From: Pseudomonadales bacterium
Lineage (GTDB): Bacteria > Pseudomonadota > Gammaproteobacteria > Pseudomonadales > Ketobacteraceae
Assembly (NCBI GenBank): GCA_002701845.1
Contig: NZXG01000038.1
Location: forward strand, 1-64,000
Length of the DNA stretch: 64,000 nt
Reading direction: 5' to 3'
Shown here piece by piece: positions 42-12,320 of the stretch. How positions within the stretch are numbered: position 1 is the first letter of the stretch; each line of letters begins with the position of its first letter. The notes under the pieces were generated by a model. That model was not told where the DNA came from. It was given only the letters and a program-made list of their open reading frames with translations, and did not search any database. The position numbers and the translations under genes are program-made.

Positions 42-695
42 CAAAATCAAATATGCCGCTTAGCAGATATATTTGAAAGCCGGGTTAATAACGGCAACTT
101 TGCCACCAGCACCATTAATGCCGCTTCCGCCACTATCTCCGGGGTGGAGATCGATGCCACTTGGGCACCCAGCGCTAACTGGCTGCTGTCGGCCAGCTTC
201 GCTCTGGTGGGCGCTGAGTTTGATAAGTGGATCGCGGAAGTTGGAGACCCCAACAATCCAGGTCAGCTTATTTCAGTGGACGCCACCGATGACGAGTTCG
301 GCTTTACTCCAGAGCGCAGCGCAACGGCCACCGCTTCCTACACTCTGCCGGTTGACTACTCTCTCGGTGATATGACTCTGACCGGATCTATCTACTGGCA
401 GGAGGATATGGTGAATTTCGCGATCCCCTCGCAGTGTGAATTTACTGTACCGGCTGGACCACTGCGTGAAGCTGCCTACGATTCCATCGAAGTCAAATCC
501 TACTCGGTAATGAATCTGCGCTTTGACTGGCGCAATATGATGAACTCCTCTTTTGACTCTTCGCTGGCAGTGAATAACGTGACTGATAAGGAATATGTGA
601 TTGGCGGCTTTAACCAGATCGATTCACTGGGTCTGGTAGAGTTGGCCTATGGTCCGCCGCGCACCGTGGTGGACACCCTTCAATACAACTTCTAG
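42..695 (+). pseudogene. TonB-dependent receptor, C-terminal beta-barrel fragment
   Basis: The reading frame is open from base 42 and ends at 695. From about base 75 it encodes the last strands of a TonB-dependent outer-membrane receptor. The pattern NAASATISGVEID is typical of the family, as are the late NNVTDKEY segment and the terminal aromatic residue (ending LQYNF) recognised by the BAM complex. In-frame stops at 33-35 and 39-41 mean the gene does not simply run off the window. The first ~70 bases are AT-rich and do not look like receptor sequence. No plug domain or TonB box is present. It is either a decayed remnant, a frameshifted gene or an assembly junction. A GTG at 144 is the first possible start with later homology but is an implausible real start. 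The TonB2 operon that follows would energise such receptors. Confidence 0.6.
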
Positions 696-836: not shown

Positions 837-1622
837 ATGAGAAGCATCATTACCCCCACGCGGGTACGACATTCGGTGTTTCTGGTATCCACCAGTTTTC
901 TGCTCAGCAATGCCGGGATTGCCGCCAGCGTTGACCAGGTCATGAATGAAAATAATGCCGCCAATAAAACCGCCGAGCAGTCCCAGCGCCAGATTGACTC
1001 CCTGTCTGAACAGACCGAGAAGCTGTTCAATGAATACAAGGTGGTGACCAAAGAGCTGGACGGCCTGCAGGTGTATAACCAGCAGCTGGAGCGACAAATC
1101 GAAAACCAGCAGCAGGAAATGCAATCCATCAATCAGTCCATCGACAAGGTGACAGTGATTGAGCGCCAGATTGTGCCGCTGATGCTGCGAATGATCGATG
1201 GCCTGGAGCAATTTGTGAAGCTGGATGTGCCCTTTCAGCAGGAGGAACGGGACGAGCGTATCGCCAACCTAAAACAGTTGATGGAGCGCAGCGAGGTCTC
1301 GGTGGCGGAAGAATTCCGCAAGATACTGGAAGCCTACCAGATCGAAAACGAGTATGGCCGGACCATCGAGGCTTATCGCGGCAACCTGGATATTGCCGGC
1401 AATGAACGGGAGGTCGATTTTCTGCGCATAGGCCGGGTCTCACTGTTGTACCAGACGGACGATGCTCGCTATTCCGGCATCTGGGACAAGGCCAGCGGCC
1501 AATGGACCCCGCTATCAGAGCAGTACCGCAGTGCCATCCGGGACGGTATTCGCATCGCCCGCAAGGAAATGGCGCCCAACCTTCTGAAGTTACCCGTTCC
1601 GTCCGCGGAGGCAGCCCAATGA
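837..1622 (+). CDS. DUF3450 periplasmic coiled-coil protein of TonB2 operon
   Basis: A 261-residue protein beginning with a likely cleavable signal peptide (basic start, hydrophobic core, cleavage near IAAS around residue 31). A long heptad-type coiled coil rich in Q and E follows (about residues 35-105). The C-terminal half is globular and ends with FLRIGRVSLLYQT and GIRIARK, typical of DUF3450. The family is found almost only as the first gene of TonB2-type operons and is thought to act in the periplasm with the energising complex; its exact role is unknown. The stop overlaps the next start as ATGA, suggesting translational coupling. The ATG is preceded by AAGGGATAGG. Confidence 0.85.
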   Translation: MRSIITPTRVRHSVFLVSTSFLLSNAGIAASVDQVMNENNAANKTAEQSQRQIDSLSEQTEKLFNEYKVVTKELDGLQVYNQQLERQIENQQQEMQSINQSIDKVTVIERQIVPLMLRMIDGLEQFVKLDVPFQQEERDERIANLKQLMERSEVSVAEEFRKILEAYQIENEYGRTIEAYRGNLDIAGNEREVDFLRIGRVSLLYQTDDARYSGIWDKASGQWTPLSEQYRSAIRDGIRIARKEMAPNLLKLPVPSAEAAQ

Positions 1623-3001
1623 AACAGCCGTCAATCATAGCCGCCCTGGCAATGTGCCTGGTCTGTACCTTTTCGACGCCGATCATGGCGGAACCGGCCG
1701 CCAACCTGGAGCAGCTGCTGGACATGGTGCGCCAGGGCAAGGTAGCGGAAATCAAGGAGCACAAAGCCCGGGAAGCCCGTTTTGTGAAAGAAAAAAGCAA
1801 TCAACAACAGTTACTGGCGGAAGCAAAACAGGCGCTGGCCGCTGCCGAAAAGCGCAGCGAGCAACTGGAAACCAAATTTGAGGCCAACGAACAGGAGATC
1901 GTCACCCTGCAGGACGCCCTGGACAAACGCCTGGGCTCGCTAAAAGAACTGTTCGGCGTACTGCAGCAGGTGGCCGGTGATACCACCAGCCAGTTTGAAA
2001 CATCCATTACCAGCGCCCAGTTCGAGAATCGGGGTAAGTTCCTTACTGAGCTGGCGCAGAAAATGGGTACCAGTTCGCAGTTGGCCTCCATTGAGGAAAT
2101 CGAGCGCCTGTGGTTTGAACTGCAGCGGGAGAAGACGGAATCCGGCAACGTGGTCAAGTTTGCGCATCCCGTTGTCAGTGCCAGCGGTGAACAACAACAG
2201 GCCGAGGTGATCCGGGTCGGCACCTTCAATCTGGTTGCCGACGGCAGGTATCTGAAATACGACAGCGACACCGGTAAAGTGGCGGAACTGGTGCGGCAAC
2301 CTTCAGGACGCTTTGTATCAATCGCTGAGACGCTGACTAATACGCCCCCCGGGCAACTGGTTGAATTCGGGCTGGATCCATCCCGTGGTACCCTGCTGTC
2401 GGCACTGATTAAAGAGCCCAATGTGCGGGAACGGGTGGAACAGGGTGGCCTGGTGGGCTACATCATTGTAGGCGTGGGTATTGTATCCCTGCTCCTGGCC
2501 CTGGAGCGTATCATCTCCCTGACCCTGACCCGGGCCAAAGTCAGGGCTCAGGCCAAATCCGATAAGATCAGTGAATCCAACCCCCTGGGGCGGGTGCTCA
2601 GCGTGCATGAGAAAACCCCCAAAATGGATCCGGATACCCTGGAGCTGAAACTGGCGGAAGCCATTATCAAAGAAAAGCCGAAGCTGGAGCGCTTTATCCC
2701 CTTGCTGAAAATTATCGCGGTTGCCGCGACCCTGTTGGGTCTGCTGGGTACGGTTATCGGCATGATTGTCACCTTCCAGTCCATTACCCTGTTCGGCACC
2801 GGTGACCCCAAACTGATGGCAGGAGGTATTTCCCAGGCTTTGATTACCACCGTGTTGGGTCTGTTGGTGGCGCTGCCCACCCTGTTCTTCCACAGCATCG
2901 CCAATTCCATCGCCAAGAATGTACTCCACATCCTGGAGGAGCAAAGCGCTGGATTGATCGCAGAGCGAATGGAGCACGAACACGATGTACGCACTGCATG
3001 A
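1619..3001 (+). CDS. MotA/TolQ/ExbB proton channel protein, TtpC-like
   Basis: A 460-residue protein started at 1619, where ATG overlaps the previous stop and GGAGG lies upstream. It has a signal peptide (ending near IMAEP) and a long periplasmic coiled coil (about residues 20-125). After a periplasmic domain come three membrane segments in the C-terminal third with the MotA/TolQ/ExbB signature (LLKIIAVAATLLGLLGTVIGM, GGISQALITTVLGLLVALP). This is the architecture of TtpC, the extra ExbB-like protein required by Vibrio TonB2 systems. It probably joins the ExbB/ExbD/TonB complex and couples the proton gradient to receptor opening. Function is inferred by family and gene order. Confidence 0.88.
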   Translation: MKQPSIIAALAMCLVCTFSTPIMAEPAANLEQLLDMVRQGKVAEIKEHKAREARFVKEKSNQQQLLAEAKQALAAAEKRSEQLETKFEANEQEIVTLQDALDKRLGSLKELFGVLQQVAGDTTSQFETSITSAQFENRGKFLTELAQKMGTSSQLASIEEIERLWFELQREKTESGNVVKFAHPVVSASGEQQQAEVIRVGTFNLVADGRYLKYDSDTGKVAELVRQPSGRFVSIAETLTNTPPGQLVEFGLDPSRGTLLSALIKEPNVRERVEQGGLVGYIIVGVGIVSLLLALERIISLTLTRAKVRAQAKSDKISESNPLGRVLSVHEKTPKMDPDTLELKLAEAIIKEKPKLERFIPLLKIIAVAATLLGLLGTVIGMIVTFQSITLFGTGDPKLMAGGISQALITTVLGLLVALPTLFFHSIANSIAKNVLHILEEQSAGLIAERMEHEHDVRTA

Positions 3002-3512
3002 TGCCTTCGAATCACTGCGGGTGTTTCTGGAAACCGGCGGTATTGTACTGGTTTTGATAGCCATCAATATTTTCGGCATGTGGACGCTGATCTTTGAACG
3101 AATCTGGTTCTTCCAGGTTCGCTACCGCAAAGACAAAGCCCACACCCTGGCGTTATGGGATTCCAGAAGGGAGCGCCGCTCCTGGCCGGCACAGCAAATC
3201 CGCACAGCACTGATTTCGAAAAGCCGCGAAGCATTGAACGACCGGTTGTCGTTGATTCAGACACTGATTGCCATTTGTCCCTTATTGGGATTGCTGGGCA
3301 CGGTCACCGGCATGATTGATGTGTTCGGCACCATGGCCAATTTTGGCACCGGCAATGCCAGGAATATGGCCGCCGGCGTGTCCAAAGCCACCATACCCAC
3401 CATGGCGGGTATGGTGGGCGCTCTCTCCGGCCTGTTCGCAATCACTTATTTAAAACGATTTGCCCAGCGGGAAAGTGAATTGGTTGAAGACCGATTGACG
3501 ACCGATCACTGA
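2985..3512 (+). CDS. exbB: ExbB proton channel subunit (TonB2 system)
   Basis: A short ExbB of 175 residues with three membrane segments: about 18-36, then the conserved pair LIAICPLLGLLGTVTGMIDVF and AGVSKATIPTMAGMVGALSGL. It lacks the long periplasmic coiled coil of the preceding gene. ExbB pentamers surround ExbD and use the proton motive force to drive TonB. The start overlaps the end of the upstream gene by 17 bases, so the two are very likely co-translated. Spacing to the following exbD is 10 bases with a GAGGA ribosome site. Confidence 0.9.
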   Translation: MYALHDAFESLRVFLETGGIVLVLIAINIFGMWTLIFERIWFFQVRYRKDKAHTLALWDSRRERRSWPAQQIRTALISKSREALNDRLSLIQTLIAICPLLGLLGTVTGMIDVFGTMANFGTGNARNMAAGVSKATIPTMAGMVGALSGLFAITYLKRFAQRESELVEDRLTTDH

Positions 3513-3522
3513 GGATAACCTG

Positions 3523-4554
3523 ATGAGAAAAGCTTTATCCAAACTGAATACCGAGGAAGAGGAATCCAACGTTGACCTCACGCCCGTGCTGGACGTGGTG
3601 TTTATTATGTTGATCTTCTTTATTGTGACCGCTTCCTTCGTTAAGGAATCCGGCATCGACGTCAACCGCCCGGACGCGGAAACGGCGCAGAAAAAAGAGC
3701 GCGCCAATATTCTGGTGGCCATTGATGAGCGCAATCAGATCTGGATTGACCGGCGTCAGGTGGACCCCCGGGCGGTACGGGCCAACATCGAACGCCTGCA
3801 TGCGGAAAATCCCCAGGGATCCGTGGTGATCCAGGCGGACAAGAACTCCAAAAACGAGCGGCTGGTGCAGGTGATGGACGCGGCCCGTCAGGCTGGCGTA
3901 TACAATGTCTCCATAGCCGCCAACGATAATTTAGGGCGCGTTGAGATGTACACGCGAATATTGTTTGCCACCGCCCCCGCCGCTCTGGTTACCCTGGCAC
4001 TGTTCTTTCTGATGATGTCACTGATCACCACCGCCAGGCACAAGCTGGGTGATGAAGGCGAGCGCTATGTGGTGGACTTTGTGCGCCTGAAACAGGAAGA
4101 GGCGGTAAAAACCAAAGAGCGCAAACCGGAAAAGCCGCCGGAAGCGGAAGCGCCGCCGCCGGAAACCGCCAAACCCCAGATGGAAGCGCCGCAAATCAAT
4201 CAGAACGTGGTGTCCATCGATTCAGCTCCCATCGACAGATCCCTGGATATCGCCACCGGTTTCGGTCTCAGCGGCGCTGACGGCGACTTCCTCCCCATCG
4301 TCAAGGTGCAGCCTATCTATCCACGGCGGGCCCTATCTCGGGGTATTGAAGGGTACGTTATCGTGGAGTTCACTGTCACCAAAAACGGCTCGGTGAAAGA
4401 TCCCGTGGTAGTGGAGGCCGATCCCCCCGGAATCTTCGATTCTGCGGCCGTGAAAGCCGCTCTGAAATTCAAGTACAAACCGCTCATCGTGGACGGTGAA
4501 CCGGTGGACGTTGCTGGGGTTCAAAACAAATTGAACTTCCAGATAGCTGATTAA
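3523..4554 (+). CDS. ExbD-TonB in a single reading frame (apparent fusion)
   Basis: One 343-residue frame contains two proteins that are normally separate. Residues 1-136 are a full-length ExbD: cytoplasmic tail, one membrane helix with the essential Asp (LDVVF, D24), and a periplasmic domain ending VSIAAND. Residues 142-343 are a full-length TonB2-type TonB: membrane helix (about 145-167), Lys/Glu/Pro-rich spacer (about 190-215), and TonB C-terminal domain with QPIYPRRA and GYVIVEF. The join is asn-leu (AAT TTA, TTA at 3931-3933) where ExbD normally stops; TTA is one change from TAA. An ATG at 3946, with AGGG upstream, could start TonB separately. A true fusion creates a topology problem, because TonB's helix must enter from the cytoplasm. 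The ATG at 3523 has GAGGA 8 bases upstream. Confidence 0.88.
   Translation: MRKALSKLNTEEEESNVDLTPVLDVVFIMLIFFIVTASFVKESGIDVNRPDAETAQKKERANILVAIDERNQIWIDRRQVDPRAVRANIERLHAENPQGSVVIQADKNSKNERLVQVMDAARQAGVYNVSIAANDNLGRVEMYTRILFATAPAALVTLALFFLMMSLITTARHKLGDEGERYVVDFVRLKQEEAVKTKERKPEKPPEAEAPPPETAKPQMEAPQINQNVVSIDSAPIDRSLDIATGFGLSGADGDFLPIVKVQPIYPRRALSRGIEGYVIVEFTVTKNGSVKDPVVVEADPPGIFDSAAVKAALKFKYKPLIVDGEPVDVAGVQNKLNFQIAD
3946..4554 (+). other. tonB: TonB module with possible internal translation start
   Basis: In-frame ATG at 3946-3948 begins MYTRILF, which matches how TonB2-type proteins start just before their single N-terminal membrane helix. An AGGG-like ribosome site lies at about 3933-3936. 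If used, it would yield a normal 202-residue TonB beside any ExbD-TonB fusion. This is inference from position and topology only. Confidence 0.45.
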
Positions 4555-4586
4555 CCGATGACTCAGGATACAGACACAACGTGGCT

Positions 4587-5951
4587 ATGAAAGCGAAGCG
4601 AAACCGTTATTTCACACACCAGGGCTCTGCCGGAAACCAGCGGAAACTGAGCCGCACTGTGGCCAGCCTGGCCTTGGTGCTGACCGTCGCAGCCTTCAGT
4701 CCGACCCCGCTGGCGGCGCAGGATCAGGCCAGGTCACAGACGCAGGAGCGTAAAACCGTCAAGACCCCGGCCCTGCGGGGAAAAATCTACCAGGTGCTGT
4801 CCGAGGCGCAGGCCAAAGCCGAGGAAAACAAACCCAAGGAAGCGCTGGCGATTCTGGACGGGCTGCGCCGCCGGTCGAAACTGAACAGCTACGAAGCTGC
4901 CATGATGTGGAAGTTCTACGCCTACATCCACTACTCTCAGGACAACTACCCTGAGGCCATTAATAGCTACGAACAGGTGCTGGCGCAAGATGCCCTGCCC
5001 CAGGCGCTGGAATCCGAAGCGCTATACAGCACCGGTCAGCTTTACTTTATTCAGGAAAATTATCGCCAGGCCATCAGTTATTTGAACCGTTGGTTTGCGC
5101 TGGTGGAAACCCCCAAACCCCAGGCCTACATCATGCTGGGTCAGGCGTACTATCAACTGGAACAACTGGATAAGGCCCGCAAGCCCATTGAAACAGCCGT
5201 TGCAATGACTGAACGCAAAGGCAAGATCCCCAAGGAAAGCTGGTATTTACTGCTACGGGCGCTTTATTTCGAGCAGAACGACTATGCCCGTGCTGCTGAC
5301 GTGCTGGAAAAGCTGGTGCGCCACTACCCGAAAAAAGATTACTGGGTGCAGTTATCCAGCGCCTACGGTGAAATGAACAAAGAGCGTCAGCAGTTGAATG
5401 CCATGGAAATTGCCTATCGGCAGGATCTTCTGGACCGGGAAAGCGAGTGGCTGAATCTTGCGCAACTGTTTATTTATCAGGATATCCCCTATAAGGCCGC
5501 CAGGGTTCTGGAACAAGGTATGGACCGGGGTATCGTTACCCAGAACGAACGCAATCTGAAGCTGCTGTCATACGCCTGGTCCACGGCGCAGGAAGCGCGC
5601 AAGGCGTTACCGGTGCTGGTGAAAGCCGCCGAGGCATCGGCCACCGGTGAACTCGACGTGCAGCTGGGGTCCACCTATTACCGGCTGGATGAGTGGAAAA
5701 ACGCAGTCTCTTATTTGCGTCAGGGACTGGACAAGGGGGACGTTAAGAATGTGGACAACGCCTATATGTTGTTGGGCCTGTCGCTATTCAACCTGGATCG
5801 TTTCGAAGACGCCCGCTATGCCTTCAAACAGGCGGCAAAGTACGAAGGCTCCAAAACCGTCGCCAGTCAATGGTTGAATTACGTGGACAAAGAAATGGAA
5901 CGGCGGGAGATCCTGGCCCAGACCAGAAAAGCCATGGAAGCCCGTCGCTGA
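4587..5951 (+). CDS. TPR repeat periplasmic protein of TonB2 operon
   Basis: A 454-residue protein with a long basic n-region, a hydrophobic signal core (SLALVLTVAAF) and likely cleavage after PLAAQ. Tandem tetratricopeptide repeats fill most of the mature protein (units beginning near PKEALAIL, YPEAINSYEQ, YRQAISYLNRW, YARAADVLEKL, FEDARYAFKQA). It is the last gene of the TonB2 operon, where such TPR proteins are standard. In Vibrio and Shewanella-type operons they are required for or enhance transport, presumably as a periplasmic scaffold. GTG at 4581 is an alternative start two codons upstream. A strong hairpin terminator follows the gene. Confidence 0.85.
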   Translation: MKAKRNRYFTHQGSAGNQRKLSRTVASLALVLTVAAFSPTPLAAQDQARSQTQERKTVKTPALRGKIYQVLSEAQAKAEENKPKEALAILDGLRRRSKLNSYEAAMMWKFYAYIHYSQDNYPEAINSYEQVLAQDALPQALESEALYSTGQLYFIQENYRQAISYLNRWFALVETPKPQAYIMLGQAYYQLEQLDKARKPIETAVAMTERKGKIPKESWYLLLRALYFEQNDYARAADVLEKLVRHYPKKDYWVQLSSAYGEMNKERQQLNAMEIAYRQDLLDRESEWLNLAQLFIYQDIPYKAARVLEQGMDRGIVTQNERNLKLLSYAWSTAQEARKALPVLVKAAEASATGELDVQLGSTYYRLDEWKNAVSYLRQGLDKGDVKNVDNAYMLLGLSLFNLDRFEDARYAFKQAAKYEGSKTVASQWLNYVDKEMERREILAQTRKAMEARR

Positions 5952-6033: not shown

Positions 6034-6109
6034 TGGTGGGTCGTGCTGGATTCGAACCAGCGACCAATTGGTTAAAAGCCAACTGCTCTACCAACTGAGC
6101 TAACGACCC
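6034..6109 (-). tRNA. tRNA-Lys (anticodon TTT)
   Basis: A 76-base tRNA read on the minus strand. It begins GGGTCGTTAGCTCAG, has the anticodon loop CTTTTAA, the T-arm GGTTCGAATCC, and an encoded CCA end. It differs by only a few bases from E. coli tRNA-Lys as I recall it. All four stems pair by eye. It is the last gene of the queE-queC side of the aspS-tol cluster but appears to have its own promoter. Confidence 0.97.
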
Positions 6110-6260: not shown

Positions 6261-6944
6261 TTACTGATATCGGGTGGGATCAGCCAGGCCGGCCGCGAGG
6301 AACCCTTCCCTGCGCAGCCGACAACTGTCACAGCGGCCGCAGGCGCGGCCGTCCGCATCCGCCTGGTAACAGGAAACAGTCAGGCTGTAATCCACGCCCA
6401 GTGCCGCACCCTGCTGGATTATTTGAGCCTTGGAGCTGTGCAGCAACGGCGCCTTCAACTGAATTGCCCTGCCCTCCACACCGCGCCTGGTGGCCAGATT
6501 GGCCAGGTTCTGAAAAGCGTCGATAAAGGCCGGCCGACAATCCGGATAGCCGGAATAATCCACGGCGTTAACCCCAATAAAAATGGCATCGGCATCCAGC
6601 ACCTCGGCCCAGCCCAGTGCCAGCGCCAAAAACACCGTGTTGCGGGCCGGTACATAGGTCACCGGAATGCCTTCGCTGGGGGTTTCGGGTACCGCGATCT
6701 GTTTGTCCGTGAGCGCGGAGCCACCAATGTCCCCAAGATTCAGACGAATGGTTTTCAATTCCCGGGCACCCAGGTCAGCCACCAGCCGGCTGGCGGCCTG
6801 TAATTCTGATTCATGGCGCTGCCCGTAATCGAAGCTGATAGCGTAGCACTCATAGTCTTCAGCCCGGGCCAGTGCCAGGCAGGTGGCAGAATCCAGCCCC
6901 CCGGATAACAGCACTACCGCTTTTTTGACATGGGTTTCAGCCAT
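6261..6944 (-). CDS. queC: 7-cyano-7-deazaguanine synthase QueC
   Basis: A 227-residue enzyme that converts 7-carboxy-7-deazaguanine to preQ0 with ATP and ammonia in queuosine biosynthesis. It carries the N-terminal PP-loop SGGLDSAT (about residues 14-21), the DYGQRH segment, VPARNT, and the C-terminal zinc cysteines (SCY...CGRCDSC, about residues 191-209). Length is normal for the family. It begins two bases downstream of the queE stop on the same strand, so the two queuosine genes are co-transcribed. The stop is followed by about 110 bases without a clear terminator before the tRNA promoter. Confidence 0.96.
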
Positions 6945-7659: not shown

Positions 7660-8475
7660 TCAGATCCGGGCCAGAAGCTCCCGGGCCAGTTTGGCCGCGG
7701 ATTTGTCAGGATGGCTTTTTATCAGCTCATTCAGGGTACTGCGGGCTTTACTGGTCTCACCCTGAGTCACATAGAGCTTGCCCAGTTTGTACATGCCGTC
7801 CGGGACCTTGACATGATCGGGATACTTTGCCAGCAGGTTGATAAAGTGACGCTTGGCCTGATCCAGGTCCACCGGATCCGCCACCATATACAGTTCACCC
7901 AGCCAGTATTCACTGTAGGGAGCATAGAGGCCGTCCGGCGCCTGTTGCAGCAGCCGCTGCAACACCTTGATGGCCTGATTGAAATCACCGGCTTTACGCA
8001 GCTCGCTGGCCTGTTGATAGAGGGCCTTGTCATCCACGTCGGAAGCCGATGCCGCCCCGCCGCCGTTGGGGGCCGGCTCGTCGTCGGCACCCCCCTGGAG
8101 CTGGTTGATGCGCATATCCAGATCCAGATAACGCTGCCGTGCCTGCTTGCGCATCTGCTCCATCTGGTGCTGCAGCTCCTCCACCATGCCCCGCAACTGA
8201 CCTATTTCCTGCTGCATTTGCTGAATCTGAGACAGGGTTTCCCAACTGCTGGAAAAACCGGGCTGGCCCTGACCACCGGTATCATCACGGGCTACTGGAA
8301 ATGGCAGTCCGTTGTTATCAGCGGTATTGTGATTATTATTGGCCGTACTTGGGGAGGCGGCGGCTCTGGAATTCTCGTTGGAGCTATTGCGATCAGGCAG
8401 AGGTTCGTAGGGGGGAACGGCCACCGCCGGAGCGGTGACCGTGATCAGTAAGGCTAGTAATAACCGATGATGCAT
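7660..8475 (-). CDS. cpoB: Tol-Pal system protein CpoB (YbgF)
   Basis: A 271-residue periplasmic protein. It starts with a signal peptide (MHHRLLLALLITVTAPAVAV), then a low-complexity N/S/A stretch (about 28-75). A coiled coil (about 85-120) of the kind that trimerises YbgF follows, with three TPR units at the C-terminus (from about residue 145: DDKALYQQASELRKAGDFNQA). CpoB couples peptidoglycan synthesis by PBP1B to outer-membrane constriction by Tol-Pal at division. It sits directly after pal, its usual place. Confidence 0.93.
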   Translation of the reverse strand: MHHRLLLALLITVTAPAVAVPPYEPLPDRNSSNENSRAAASPSTANNNHNTADNNGLPFPVARDDTGGQGQPGFSSSWETLSQIQQMQQEIGQLRGMVEELQHQMEQMRKQARQRYLDLDMRINQLQGGADDEPAPNGGGAASASDVDDKALYQQASELRKAGDFNQAIKVLQRLLQQAPDGLYAPYSEYWLGELYMVADPVDLDQAKRHFINLLAKYPDHVKVPDGMYKLGKLYVTQGETSKARSTLNELIKSHPDKSAAKLARELLARI

Positions 8476-8479
8476 TTAA

Positions 8480-9025
8480 TCAGGGTGCTTCAGCGGTGTA
8501 GTTCAACTCAGATCGGCGATTTTGTGACCAAGCAGCCTCGTCGTGGCCCAGAGCCACCGGCCGCTCTTCGCCGTAGCTGATAATTTCCAGTTGCGAGGCA
8601 GAGGCACCGTTGGCCGCCAGGAAGCTGGCCACGGCCTTGGCGCGACGCTCACCCAGTGCCATGTTGTATTCGCGGGTACCGCGCTCATCCGCATGTCCTT
8701 CCACCCGCAGCTGGGCGCCGGGATTCTCTGACAGGTACTGGGCGTGCGCCTGCAGTGTGGCCACCGCGTCAGGACGGATATTCGCCTTGTCGAAATCGAA
8801 GTACACCACCCGCTCCTGCAGCGCCGGATCGGTCATTTCCTGCTGGGCGCCATAATCGCCGCCCATGGCGCCACCGCTGACGTCATCATCGGGGCTGGAA
8901 TAATCGGTGGTGGTATCGGCAGCCATAGTGTCATCCGCCGTGGTATCTTCCGGGGTGGAACTACAGGCGGAAATAGCAAAAACAGCAATCAGGGCAAAAA
9001 GAAAATTACGATTGGACATGGGCAT
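8480..9025 (-). CDS. pal: Peptidoglycan-associated lipoprotein Pal
   Basis: A 181-residue outer-membrane lipoprotein. The lipobox is ISAC with Cys at about residue 21. A 50-residue Asp/Thr/Gly-rich flexible linker leads to an OmpA-like peptidoglycan-binding domain with YFDFDKANIRPDA, VEGHADERGTREYN, ALGERRA and GEERPVALG. Pal anchors the outer membrane to peptidoglycan and is moved by TolB/TolA during division. The first ATG (with GGAG upstream) is preferred over the Met two codons later. It is followed five bases downstream by cpoB. Confidence 0.96.
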   Translation of the reverse strand: MPMSNRNFLFALIAVFAISACSSTPEDTTADDTMAADTTTDYSSPDDDVSGGAMGGDYGAQQEMTDPALQERVVYFDFDKANIRPDAVATLQAHAQYLSENPGAQLRVEGHADERGTREYNMALGERRAKAVASFLAANGASASQLEIISYGEERPVALGHDEAAWSQNRRSELNYTAEAP

Positions 9026-9102
9026 ATTGAACTCCTAAGAGGACACTCCTGGCAGATAGTAGAGCTTCGTTAAAGTTTTTTAAACAGTGTTGCAACATTT
9101 TT

Positions 9103-10404
9103 TCACAGGTATGGAGACCAGGCCGGCTCCCGCACATTACCCACGCGGGATGGTAACTTCACCTTAACCCTGCCATCCAGGGACACAGCAGCCAGAACAC
9201 CCCGGTTATTCTCCATGGTGGCATAGATTATCATGCTGGCATTAGGTGCAATACTGGGCGATTCATCCAATTGTGTTCGGGTTAACACATTGAAAGTACC
9301 CCGCACCAAATCTTTCACCGCAATATGGAACACCCCGTTGTTCCGGTGCACCATCGCCAGGAACCGGCCATCCGGAGTCAGGGCCGGACGGGCGTTATAG
9401 CTGCCCTCGAATGTTAAGCGTTCAACCTTTCCCGAATCAAGATACTGACGATAAATTTGTGGAGATCCACCCCGTTCCGAGGTAAATATCAGGCTTTGGC
9501 CGTCCGGTGCCCAGGTGGGCTCGGTATCAATAGCGTAGTGATTGGTGATCCGGCGCAGTTTTCCGCTGCGCAGATCCATGGTGTAGATCTCCGGATTGCC
9601 GTCCTTGGACAGCACCATGGCCATTTGCCGGCCGTCCGGGGAAAACCGGGGCGCGCCGTTGAGACCACGGAAATTGGTGATCTGCTTTTCCGCGCCGGTT
9701 TTGGTATCGCGAATATAGATGGCCGGTCGGGTGCTTTTGAAGGAGACGTAGGTAATGTGGCGGCCGTTGGGGGCCCAACTGGGGGACAGAATAGGCTCGC
9801 TGGATTCCATCAGAATTCTGTCGTTATGCCCGTCCACGTCGGCCATGTAGAGCCGATAACGTTGTTTGCTGGGCCCCGCGCCCGGCTCCTGCAGGTATTC
9901 CATGGTCACATAAAGCATTTTGGTGGAAAAAGCACCACGAATCCCGGTCAGCTCCTGATACAGGACATCGCTTACATGGTGCGCCAGGGCCCGCAGATCC
10001 CCCCCGGTGGCAAACCAGCTGTTCACCTTCCGTTGCTGGAACACGTCAAACAACTCATAGTCCACCCGGTATTTGCCGTCGTCCGTACGCCCCAGACGCC
10101 CGATTACCAGATACTCGGCGCCGTTGGTTTTGGATTGCCAGTCCCGATAGAACACCTGATCCTGACGACTGGGCAAACTCAGCATCTTCGACCGCTCCAG
10201 CGGGGCAAACTGGCCGGAGCGATGCAGGTCAGCGGCCACAATGGTGGCCACATCCTCCGGCAGCCGGGGGCCACTCCAGGCGAAGGGCACAATGGCGATG
10301 GAGGTGGCATCGGTGATGCCCTCGGTGATCTCGATAATCAATTCGGCGCGCAAGCCGGTGGCGCACAACGCCAGCCAGCTCATCAACAGCAATCGTTTAA
10401 TCAT
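9103..10404 (-). CDS. tolB: Tol-Pal translocation protein TolB
   Basis: A 433-residue periplasmic protein with a signal peptide (ending near LRAEL), an N-terminal alpha/beta domain (about 22-165) and a six-bladed beta-propeller. The propeller shows the repeated signatures [45 protein letters not shown] and [13 protein letters not shown]. TolB binds Pal and is released by TolA. The length matches the family. It lies 26 bases after tolA and 77 bases before pal. Confidence 0.96.
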
Positions 10405-10430
10405 AAGTACTCTCTGACTCCATCACGGGT

Positions 10431-11165
10431 TCAATAGCGCAGATCGCTGGGTTTGAACCGCATTTTGAATTTACGGAAGTGGCGATCGAATAATTGGGGA
10501 TCCGGTGGCACACTGAAGCGTCCGGCTTTCTGCACCGCCTGCAGGGCGGCATCGTCAAAAGCGCGATTGCCACTGGATTCATCAATGCTGACCGTTCTTA
10601 CCTCGCCGCCGGGCAACAGACTGATATCCAGGGTTACCACCATATCATTACGGGCACTGGGGGGAAGCACCCAATAACGCTTCATGGTCTGCTGAATCAG
10701 CCCCCTGTACTGGGCGATTTCATCCAGCTCCTGCCGCGACTGGCTGTCGGGATCGCCTTCTACCGTCTCAGTTTTCTGCTGCTCCATGGCCTCCATTTCC
10801 TCCCGCAACAGATCGTCGAACGCTGAGCTGGATGTTTGCGTTTCCGGCTCCGGTTGCGGCTCGGGCTCCGGCCTGGGCTGTGGTTTTGGTTCCGGTTTTG
10901 GCTTCGGTTTGGGCTTGGGCTCTGGTTTTGGCTTCGGTTTGGGCTTGGGTTTGGGCTTGGGTTTCGGTTCAGGCTTGGGTTCTGGTGCCGGCTTGGGCTC
11001 GGCCTTGGGCTTCTCCACCACCACCGCGGTTACATGCCGGGGCAGGGGTTTCAACTCCACCACCTCGTCCGTATCCGGCCAGCCGAAAAACAACATGCCC
11101 ACCACCAGCACATGCACCAGGATGGCTTTCAGCAGAGCTGCGATGTCCAGTCGATGGAATGACAA
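10431..11165 (-). CDS. tolA: TolA with a Pro-Lys/Glu rod
   Basis: A 244-residue inner-membrane protein: cytoplasmic N-terminus, one membrane helix (about 14-30), spacer and C-terminal TolB/Pal-interacting domain (about 145-244, with QTMKRYWVLPPSARNDMVV and GNRAFDDAALQAV). The spacer (about 55-112) is not the Ala-rich helix of E. coli TolA but a run of KP/EP dipeptides like that of TonB, giving an extended polyproline rod and a shorter protein than the E. coli version. Function in energy transfer from TolQR to the outer membrane is inferred from position between tolR and tolB and the C-terminal domain. Confidence 0.93.
   Translation of the reverse strand: MSFHRLDIAALLKAILVHVLVVGMLFFGWPDTDEVVELKPLPRHVTAVVVEKPKAEPKPAPEPKPEPKPKPKPKPKPKPKPEPKPKPKPKPEPKPQPRPEPEPQPEPETQTSSSAFDDLLREEMEAMEQQKTETVEGDPDSQSRQELDEIAQYRGLIQQTMKRYWVLPPSARNDMVVTLDISLLPGGEVRTVSIDESSGNRAFDDAALQAVQKAGRFSVPPDPQLFDRHFRKFKMRFKPSDLRY
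10850..10995. repeat. Short tandem repeats coding the TolA KP/EP rod
   Basis: An imperfect 6/12-base repeat of GGTTTC/GGCTTG/GGTTTT type units (plus strand) encodes alternating Lys-Pro and Glu-Pro. Such arrays are prone to length change by slippage without loss of frame when whole 6-base units are gained or lost. Confidence 0.7.
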
Positions 11166-11168
11166 GAG

Positions 11169-11606
11169 CTACTCCCGGCCGTTGTCTTCGGTCACCAGGC
11201 CCACGTCATTGATCCCGGCCTCCTGCAGGGCGATCATCATCCGCATCACCAGGCCATAAGCCACCCGTTCATCACCTTCCATCAGCACCGGAGTATCCGG
11301 CTTTTCCTGCTTGAGGGCGGCCACCGAGGCAACGATGTCCGGCAATGCCTTGGGCGTCTGCTTATCTTCCGCCGTGCTCACGTAATACTGGCCATTGTGG
11401 TCCACGGACACGATCACGAACTGCTGATCCTTGGGCAGGGTCAGTGGCTCGGCGCGGGCATCCGGCAGGTCCACTTTGATCCCCGAGGTCATCATGGGGG
11501 CGGTGATCATGAATACCACCAGCAACACCAGCATCACATCGATATAAGGAACGACATTGATCTCTGACAGGGGCTTGCGTCGGACTGTGGTTCGCTTCTG
11601 AGACAT
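11169..11606 (-). CDS. tolR: Tol system proton channel subunit TolR
   Basis: A 145-residue ExbD/TolR protein: short cytoplasmic tail with the conserved PLSEINVVPYIDVMLVLLVVF membrane helix containing the proton-carrying Asp, then a periplasmic domain ending near EAGINDVGLVT. It acts with TolQ as the motor for TolA. It lies 18 bases after tolQ and 3 bases before tolA, consistent with co-translation. Confidence 0.96.
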   Translation of the reverse strand: MSQKRTTVRRKPLSEINVVPYIDVMLVLLVVFMITAPMMTSGIKVDLPDARAEPLTLPKDQQFVIVSVDHNGQYYVSTAEDKQTPKALPDIVASVAALKQEKPDTPVLMEGDERVAYGLVMRMMIALQEAGINDVGLVTEDNGRE

Positions 11607-11624
11607 AATAGGGGGCGCAACCGA

Positions 11625-12320
11625 TCAGGCTTTGGCTTCCGCTTCGCTGCTGGCATGGGCCTTGCGATGCAGAATACTGGAGAATTCGTCCATAAAGGTT
11701 TCGTAGTTATGCAGTAGCCGGTCCACATTGGCGGAAAAACGGTTGTAGCTGATCACCGCCGGGATCGCCGCAAACAAGCCAATAGCGGTGGCAATCAGGG
11801 CCTCGGCGATGCCGGGAGCCACCACCGACAGCGTGGCCTGGGTTTCATTGGCCAGCGCCAGAAACGAGTGCATAATCCCCCACACGGTGCCAAACAAACC
11901 GATATAGGGGCTGGTGGAACCCACGGTTGCCAGGAAAGGCAGATGAGTTTCCAGCTTTTCCTGTTCCCGCAGCAGGGCCACCCGCATGGAACGTTCGGTA
12001 CCGGCCATGACCGCTTCCGGGTCGCTGCCGCCACCTTTGCGCAGGCGGGCAAACTCCTTGAACCCGGCCCGAAAAATATTTTCCTGCCCACTGTAGGGGT
12101 TGGGTTCGGTGTTGACCTGCACGAACAGACGACTCAGATCGATACCGGACCAGAAGCGCTCTTCGAACGAGTGCAGGGCTTTGCCGGTTTTCGACATCAC
12201 CGCCTGACGTTTCCAGATCATGTACCAGGATATCAGCGACAGAGAAAGCAGGATCAGCATCACCAGTTGCACCACGATGGAGGCGTTGATGATCAAACCG
12301 ATGACAGACATTGATTCCAC
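11625..12320 (-). CDS. tolQ: Tol system proton channel subunit TolQ
   Basis: A 231-residue inner-membrane protein with three helices (about 10-35, 130-160 and 170-195). The conserved FLATVGSTSPYIGLFGTVWGIM and VAPGIAEALIATAIGLFAAIPA segments mark the TolQ branch of MotA/TolQ/ExbB. It forms the Tol motor with TolR. It is the first tol gene, 20 bases after ybgC. Confidence 0.96.
   Translation of the reverse strand: MESMSVIGLIINASIVVQLVMLILLSLSLISWYMIWKRQAVMSKTGKALHSFEERFWSGIDLSRLFVQVNTEPNPYSGQENIFRAGFKEFARLRKGGGSDPEAVMAGTERSMRVALLREQEKLETHLPFLATVGSTSPYIGLFGTVWGIMHSFLALANETQATLSVVAPGIAEALIATAIGLFAAIPAVISYNRFSANVDRLLHNYETFMDEFSSILHRKAHASSEAEAKA

Follow-up and report, generated by a model that had tools for sequence, protein, structure and literature searches.

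The window analyzed here, a 64,000-nt stretch that begins at base 1 of contig C1 of a Pseudomonadales genome, carries on the (+) strand a run of genes in the order probable receptor gene end, DUF3450, TtpC, ExbB, ExbD-TonB, and TPR. The first of these (144..695) is cut by the contig end and has no Pfam match. Read from the sequence of its counterpart in genome G005, where the frame comprises 844 codons, and with 55–66% identity over 182–185 residues to the genes upstream of three orthologous operons, it is probably the C-terminal end of a TonB-dependent receptor gene, whose product would be the putative receptor energized by the operon. Downstream lie the genes for a DUF3450 protein (TtpB-like; 837..1622; PF11932, E = 3.6e-94; 74–75% identity to three orthologues), a TtpC-like long MotA/ExbB protein (1619..3001; PF01618 at residues 333–440; 78–79% identity), ExbB (2985..3512; PF01618, E = 4.3e-22; 85–87% identity), the joined ExbD and TonB, and a TPR protein (TtpD-like; 4581..5951; TPR families; 64–67% identity). 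The probable start of the TtpC-like gene overlaps the DUF3450 stop by 4 bases (ATGA, 1619–1622).

Pfam matches of five consecutive proteins thus cluster the long MotA/ExbB protein (TtpC) with a second ExbB, ExbD, and TonB, with DUF3450/TtpB (PF11932) as the first gene and TPR/TtpD as the last. To judge from this content, the locus is an ordinary TtpC-type (TonB2-like) TonB energizer operon, i.e., one of a known type, and the order from DUF3450 to TPR is identical in the five other loci compared (L161–L164 and L166). In the Vibrio TonB2 operon, the four middle genes are ordered TtpC2, ExbB2, ExbD2, and TonB2. As described in part of PMC6957404, the Vibrio TonB2/TtpC energizer comprises six genes (ttpB2, ttpC2, exbB2, exbD2, tonB2, and ttpD2); compared by that description, the window operon likewise opens with a DUF3450 protein of ~260 residues and closes with a TPR protein, with TtpC, ExbB, ExbD, and TonB in between. 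The same passages have the Vibrio tonB3 operon opening with an outer-membrane receptor gene, as the window operon probably does (PMC6957404). However, while six genes are described for Vibrio, no stop separates exbD from tonB in the window (PMC6957404, in part).

Elsewhere in the window, a complete-looking Tol-Pal cluster (TolQ, TolR, TolA, TolB, Pal, and CpoB-like) occupies 7660–12320 on the (−) strand and adjoins genes for QueC and a QueE-like protein; we assigned TolQ, Pal, CpoB, and QueE by interpreting MotA_ExbB, OmpA, TolA-binding, and radical-SAM matches, respectively. A tRNA-Lys (TTT) gene at 6034–6109 (−) is the sole tRNA gene that ARAGORN found in the window.

One reading frame for ExbD and TonB

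The open frame at 3523–4554 (+) runs for 343 codons from ATG to the TAA at 4552 and is laid out as ExbD (residues 1–136; 3523..3930), five spacer codons (3931..3945), and a full TonB (residues 142–343; 3946..4554). The ExbD half matches PF02472 over residues 12–134 (E = 1.6e-31), and the TonB half matches TonB_C (PF03544) over residues 263–340 (E = 1.7e-19). This bears out two observations of the first-pass annotation, namely that ExbD and TonB have one reading frame in common and that the TonB within it is complete. The former intergenic spacer now reads TTA GGG CGC GTT GAG, with TTA as codon 3931–3933 and four more codons between it and the ATG at 3946. Only two hydrophobic stretches were found in the joined frame (about residues 15–45 and 144–172; 19-residue mean hydropathy, threshold of 1.6), each of which, by its predicted hydropathy, suits one membrane helix.

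Among solved structures, 19 distinct chains matched the window protein in sequence (E ≤ 0.01), each at the ExbD or the TonB domain (e.g., 2k9k [TonB2], 7ajq [ExbD], and 6tyi [ExbD]), and none spans both, the best stretch lying in one domain for 19 of 19 chains. A structure model of the joined chain likewise has ExbD and TonB as distinct domains (mean pLDDT, 68.6), with a pTM of 0.29, and therefore the arrangement of the two domains in the model is not meaningful.

A stop codon between exbD and tonB in relatives

Of the five other genomes in the genus, three (G003, G004, and G005) have an orthologous operon with the same gene order; the whole operon is conserved in them, with ExbD 92–95% and TonB (from its first Met) 76–81% identical to the window. 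At the codon matching TTA 3931–3933, all three have TGA, which ends exbD; in G003 and G005, a second TGA follows two codons on. The tonB start in all three aligns with the ATG at 3946 (Met, residue 142). The first-pass annotation had proposed that ExbD normally ends at this TTA and, as one option, that TonB starts separately at ATG 3946, both of which agree with the three orthologues; relatives with a stop and separate genes, which it had named as refuting its case, are found in all three. It had also placed the TTA one base from TAA, which is true, except that the relatives' stop is TGA (TTA is one base from either). Since all three orthologues have TGA and a tonB starting at the same Met, the ancestral state in the genus would most simply be two genes with a TGA stop.

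exbD and tonB are in frame in two of the three orthologues and out of frame in G003, and therefore the frame relation of the two genes is not conserved in the genus. In the G003 locus (L163, around 6528–6543), the exbD-tonB spacer is one base shorter than in G005. The remaining two genomes of the genus, G001 and G002, have no close match (best ExbD, 63–64% identical; best TonB, 38–39%), and the operon may therefore be accessory in the genus.

We then compared ExbD-TonB junctions more widely. From 135 loci, after loci without both genes and repeat junctions were dropped, 101 gave 104 pairs with distinct junctions; 80 of the loci are the top 80 among at least 577 relatives, and three (L073, L078, and L111) give two pairs each. 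An exbD stop is present in 103 of the 104 pairs (TAA, 44; TAG, 34; TGA, 25), with the window as the sole exception. The loci with two pairs, from a metagenome-assembled genome (MAG) labelled Proteobacteria (L073), a Woeseiaceae MAG (L078), and Seongchinamella sediminis (L111), have two exbD-like genes before one tonB, which possibly encode paired ExbD subunits.

Two surveys with the window protein as the query gave the same picture. In the survey of the order (390 genomes; E ≤ 1e-60; at most five candidates scored per genome), 71 genomes gave 74 matches, 72 of which span both genes (two G003 matches, to its separate exbD and tonB, were left out), and all 71 one-frame matches other than the window contain a stop. 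In the survey of the phylum (398 genomes; E ≤ 1e-40; at most five candidates per genome), 29 genomes gave matches, 21 of them spanning both genes (the window and 20 others), and all 20 others contain a stop. Such a query favors one-frame pairs and would miss distant fusions, and the sets overlap in part (G070 is in both surveys; G004, G005, and G008 are in both the pair set and the order survey). We found no report of a natural ExbD-TonB fusion in the open PMC literature; in the passages of PMC12204202 on how these systems evolved, fusions of TolB-Pal and CpoB-TolB-Pal are mentioned and none of ExbD-TonB.

A conserved ExbD-TonB fusion family was considered and rejected, the frame being open in 0 of 3 orthologues, 0 of the 103 other pairs, and 0 of 71 and 0 of 20 survey matches. 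As a conserved kind, the new two-helix energizer offered by the first-pass annotation is unsupported for the same reason: the relatives have a stop and separate genes, in all three orthologues and in every other pair examined.

Topology of the joined chain and translation of tonB

In the parts of the literature that bear on topology, ExbD has an N-proximal anchor and a body that extends into the periplasm (PMC11658791), and TonB carries a single helix at its N-terminus, with a C-terminal domain that spans the periplasm (PMC9022066). Both bodies are thus periplasmic, each after a single helix, and the topological conflict that the first-pass annotation raised for a fusion stands on these descriptions (PMC11658791; PMC9022066). 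The ExbD part of the long chain would insert as usual and the following TonB helix would then run back into the membrane, so that, unless the chain were cut, the TonB domain would end up cytoplasmic. That annotation overlooked the converse problem: a start within the frame can supply TonB but no tail-free ExbD. Without the stop, all ribosomes that start at exbD make the long product, and therefore a separate TonB start cannot restore free ExbD, which the joined frame can yield only by cutting.

Another copy may bear on this point. A second operon in this genome, on contig C64 (L164), has DUF3450, TtpC, ExbB, ExbD, TonB, and TPR in identical order; its exbD has a TAA stop and its tonB is read in another frame, unlike the single frame without a stop in the window; in total, the genome has 8 ExbD/TolR and 6 TonB_C matches. 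The C64 operon may cover for a lost free ExbD. Such a backup is only an assumption because the two operons are just 61% (ExbD) and 36% (TonB) identical.

The 343-residue chain could itself be a working energizer, with its TonB helix inverted and serving a new function, or arranged in a non-textbook topology. The frame is open, both domains are intact and constrained, and the charges flanking the TonB helix favor neither orientation clearly (2 Lys/Arg in the 15 residues before it and 3 in the 15 after; net charge of 0 on both sides). However, such a chain is seen in no relative examined, and in the model, at a pTM of 0.29, the TonB helix (residues 137–174) begins only four residues after the last ExbD strand (129–132). 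With a reported stoichiometry of ExbB5:ExbD2, a 1:1 ratio of ExbD to TonB would also tie two TonB chains to each motor (PMC9022066, in part), and the disordered region of TonB is reported to bind between two ExbD chains, at their periplasmic bodies (PMC10771500, in part), a site that an inverted TonB could not occupy. We consider this explanation highly improbable. Equally little credence is given to a single-chain energizer whose tethered or inverted TonB is accompanied by free TonB from the internal start, i.e., tailed ExbD plus normal TonB.

The likely tonB ribosome site of the three orthologues (TGAGG) includes the TGA stop, and the spacer of the window carries a weaker putative site, TTAGGG. 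Specifically, the duplex energy with the 16S tail is −4.7 kcal/mol in the window versus −6.1 to −6.8 kcal/mol in the relatives. Energies at least as strong as −4.7 kcal/mol occur at 19 of the 35 ATG starts of window frames chosen by length alone. They also occur at 131 of the 353 internal in-frame ATGs in the window, and a start at 3946 is therefore plausible and not proven. TonB can probably still start at 3946, from a ribosome site that looks weaker. No signal of an mRNA hairpin was found at the tonB start (z-score of 0.57 in the window versus −0.44 to −1.56 in the relatives).

The lost stop could also matter through coupling. According to the relevant passages of PMC10666635, termination-reinitiation coupling falls steeply with distance and is almost lost at about 20 bases, and a small E. 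coli group lies near +10. In G004 and G005, the first stop is 12 bases before the tonB ATG; given this distance and the reported decay, the stop could have aided tonB or had no effect on it, and any such help is gone with the stop.

A lost stop or a wrong base

The main competing explanation is a base-call or assembly error, in which case the organism has the stop and two ordinary genes. Draft assemblies do contain substitution errors, though rarely. The open frame is unique among all pairs examined, the TTA is one substitution from the orthologues' TGA, both genes otherwise look constrained, and the site was singled out for being anomalous, all of which argue for an error. Against it, the 69-contig genome has scores of 99.98% completeness and 1.63% contamination, the site lies about 3.9 kb inside a 340-kb contig, the joined frame is otherwise intact, and one error leaves several other spacer differences unexplained. 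Across the 18 bases before the tonB ATG, there are 8 differences between the window and G005, 11 between the window and G004, and 4 between G005 and G004. These several differences, in place of one isolated change, allow an older event, and the divergence appears to point away from a single isolated wrong base, without settling the matter.

Selection is consistent with either explanation. Rough dN/dS ratios for ExbD are 0.015–0.027 between the window and the three orthologues and 0.008–0.019 among those three, and for TonB 0.046–0.075 and 0.020–0.094, respectively; on these values, both appear strongly constrained, with ExbD slightly less so than among the other three genomes. The pN of this genome against the others is slightly larger (ExbD, 0.026–0.045; TonB, 0.111–0.135) than among the others (0.014–0.037 and 0.066–0.121, respectively), which would fit earlier branching and also mild relaxation. 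For DUF3450, the dN/dS ratios that were computable are 0.098 and 0.160 for this genome versus 0.056–0.074 among the others. Since synonymous sites are near saturation (pS of 0.56–0.78 over four genes, with dS not computable for two pairs), these ratios are all approximate and would not register a recent change; they fit error, recent change, or tolerated change alike. A dead TonB under relaxed selection, also considered, left no clear sign in the TonB ratios (0.046–0.075, likewise rough).

Taken together, we favor, at a probability of roughly 0.6, an ordinary TtpC-type operon in which the exbD stop has been lost in one genome, joining two normally separate genes. By judgment and not by computation, we place a stop loss present in the organism at about two to one over a base-call error, which is thus a serious though less probable explanation. 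With the stop lost, ribosomes starting at exbD would make the 343-residue ExbD-spacer-TonB chain, while some would start afresh at ATG 3946 and yield a normal 202-residue TonB, probably in smaller amounts than before the stop was lost, given the missing adjacent stop and the weaker ribosome site. ExbD function would then depend on whether the tail is tolerated, on cutting by a protease, or on the genome's other operon of this type.

If it is an error, the locus is a warning that one wrong base between in-frame neighbors can place a spurious fusion protein in databases. If the loss of the stop is real, this operon would be a natural test both of the load tolerated at the periplasmic end of ExbD and of whether translation of tonB needs the adjacent exbD stop.
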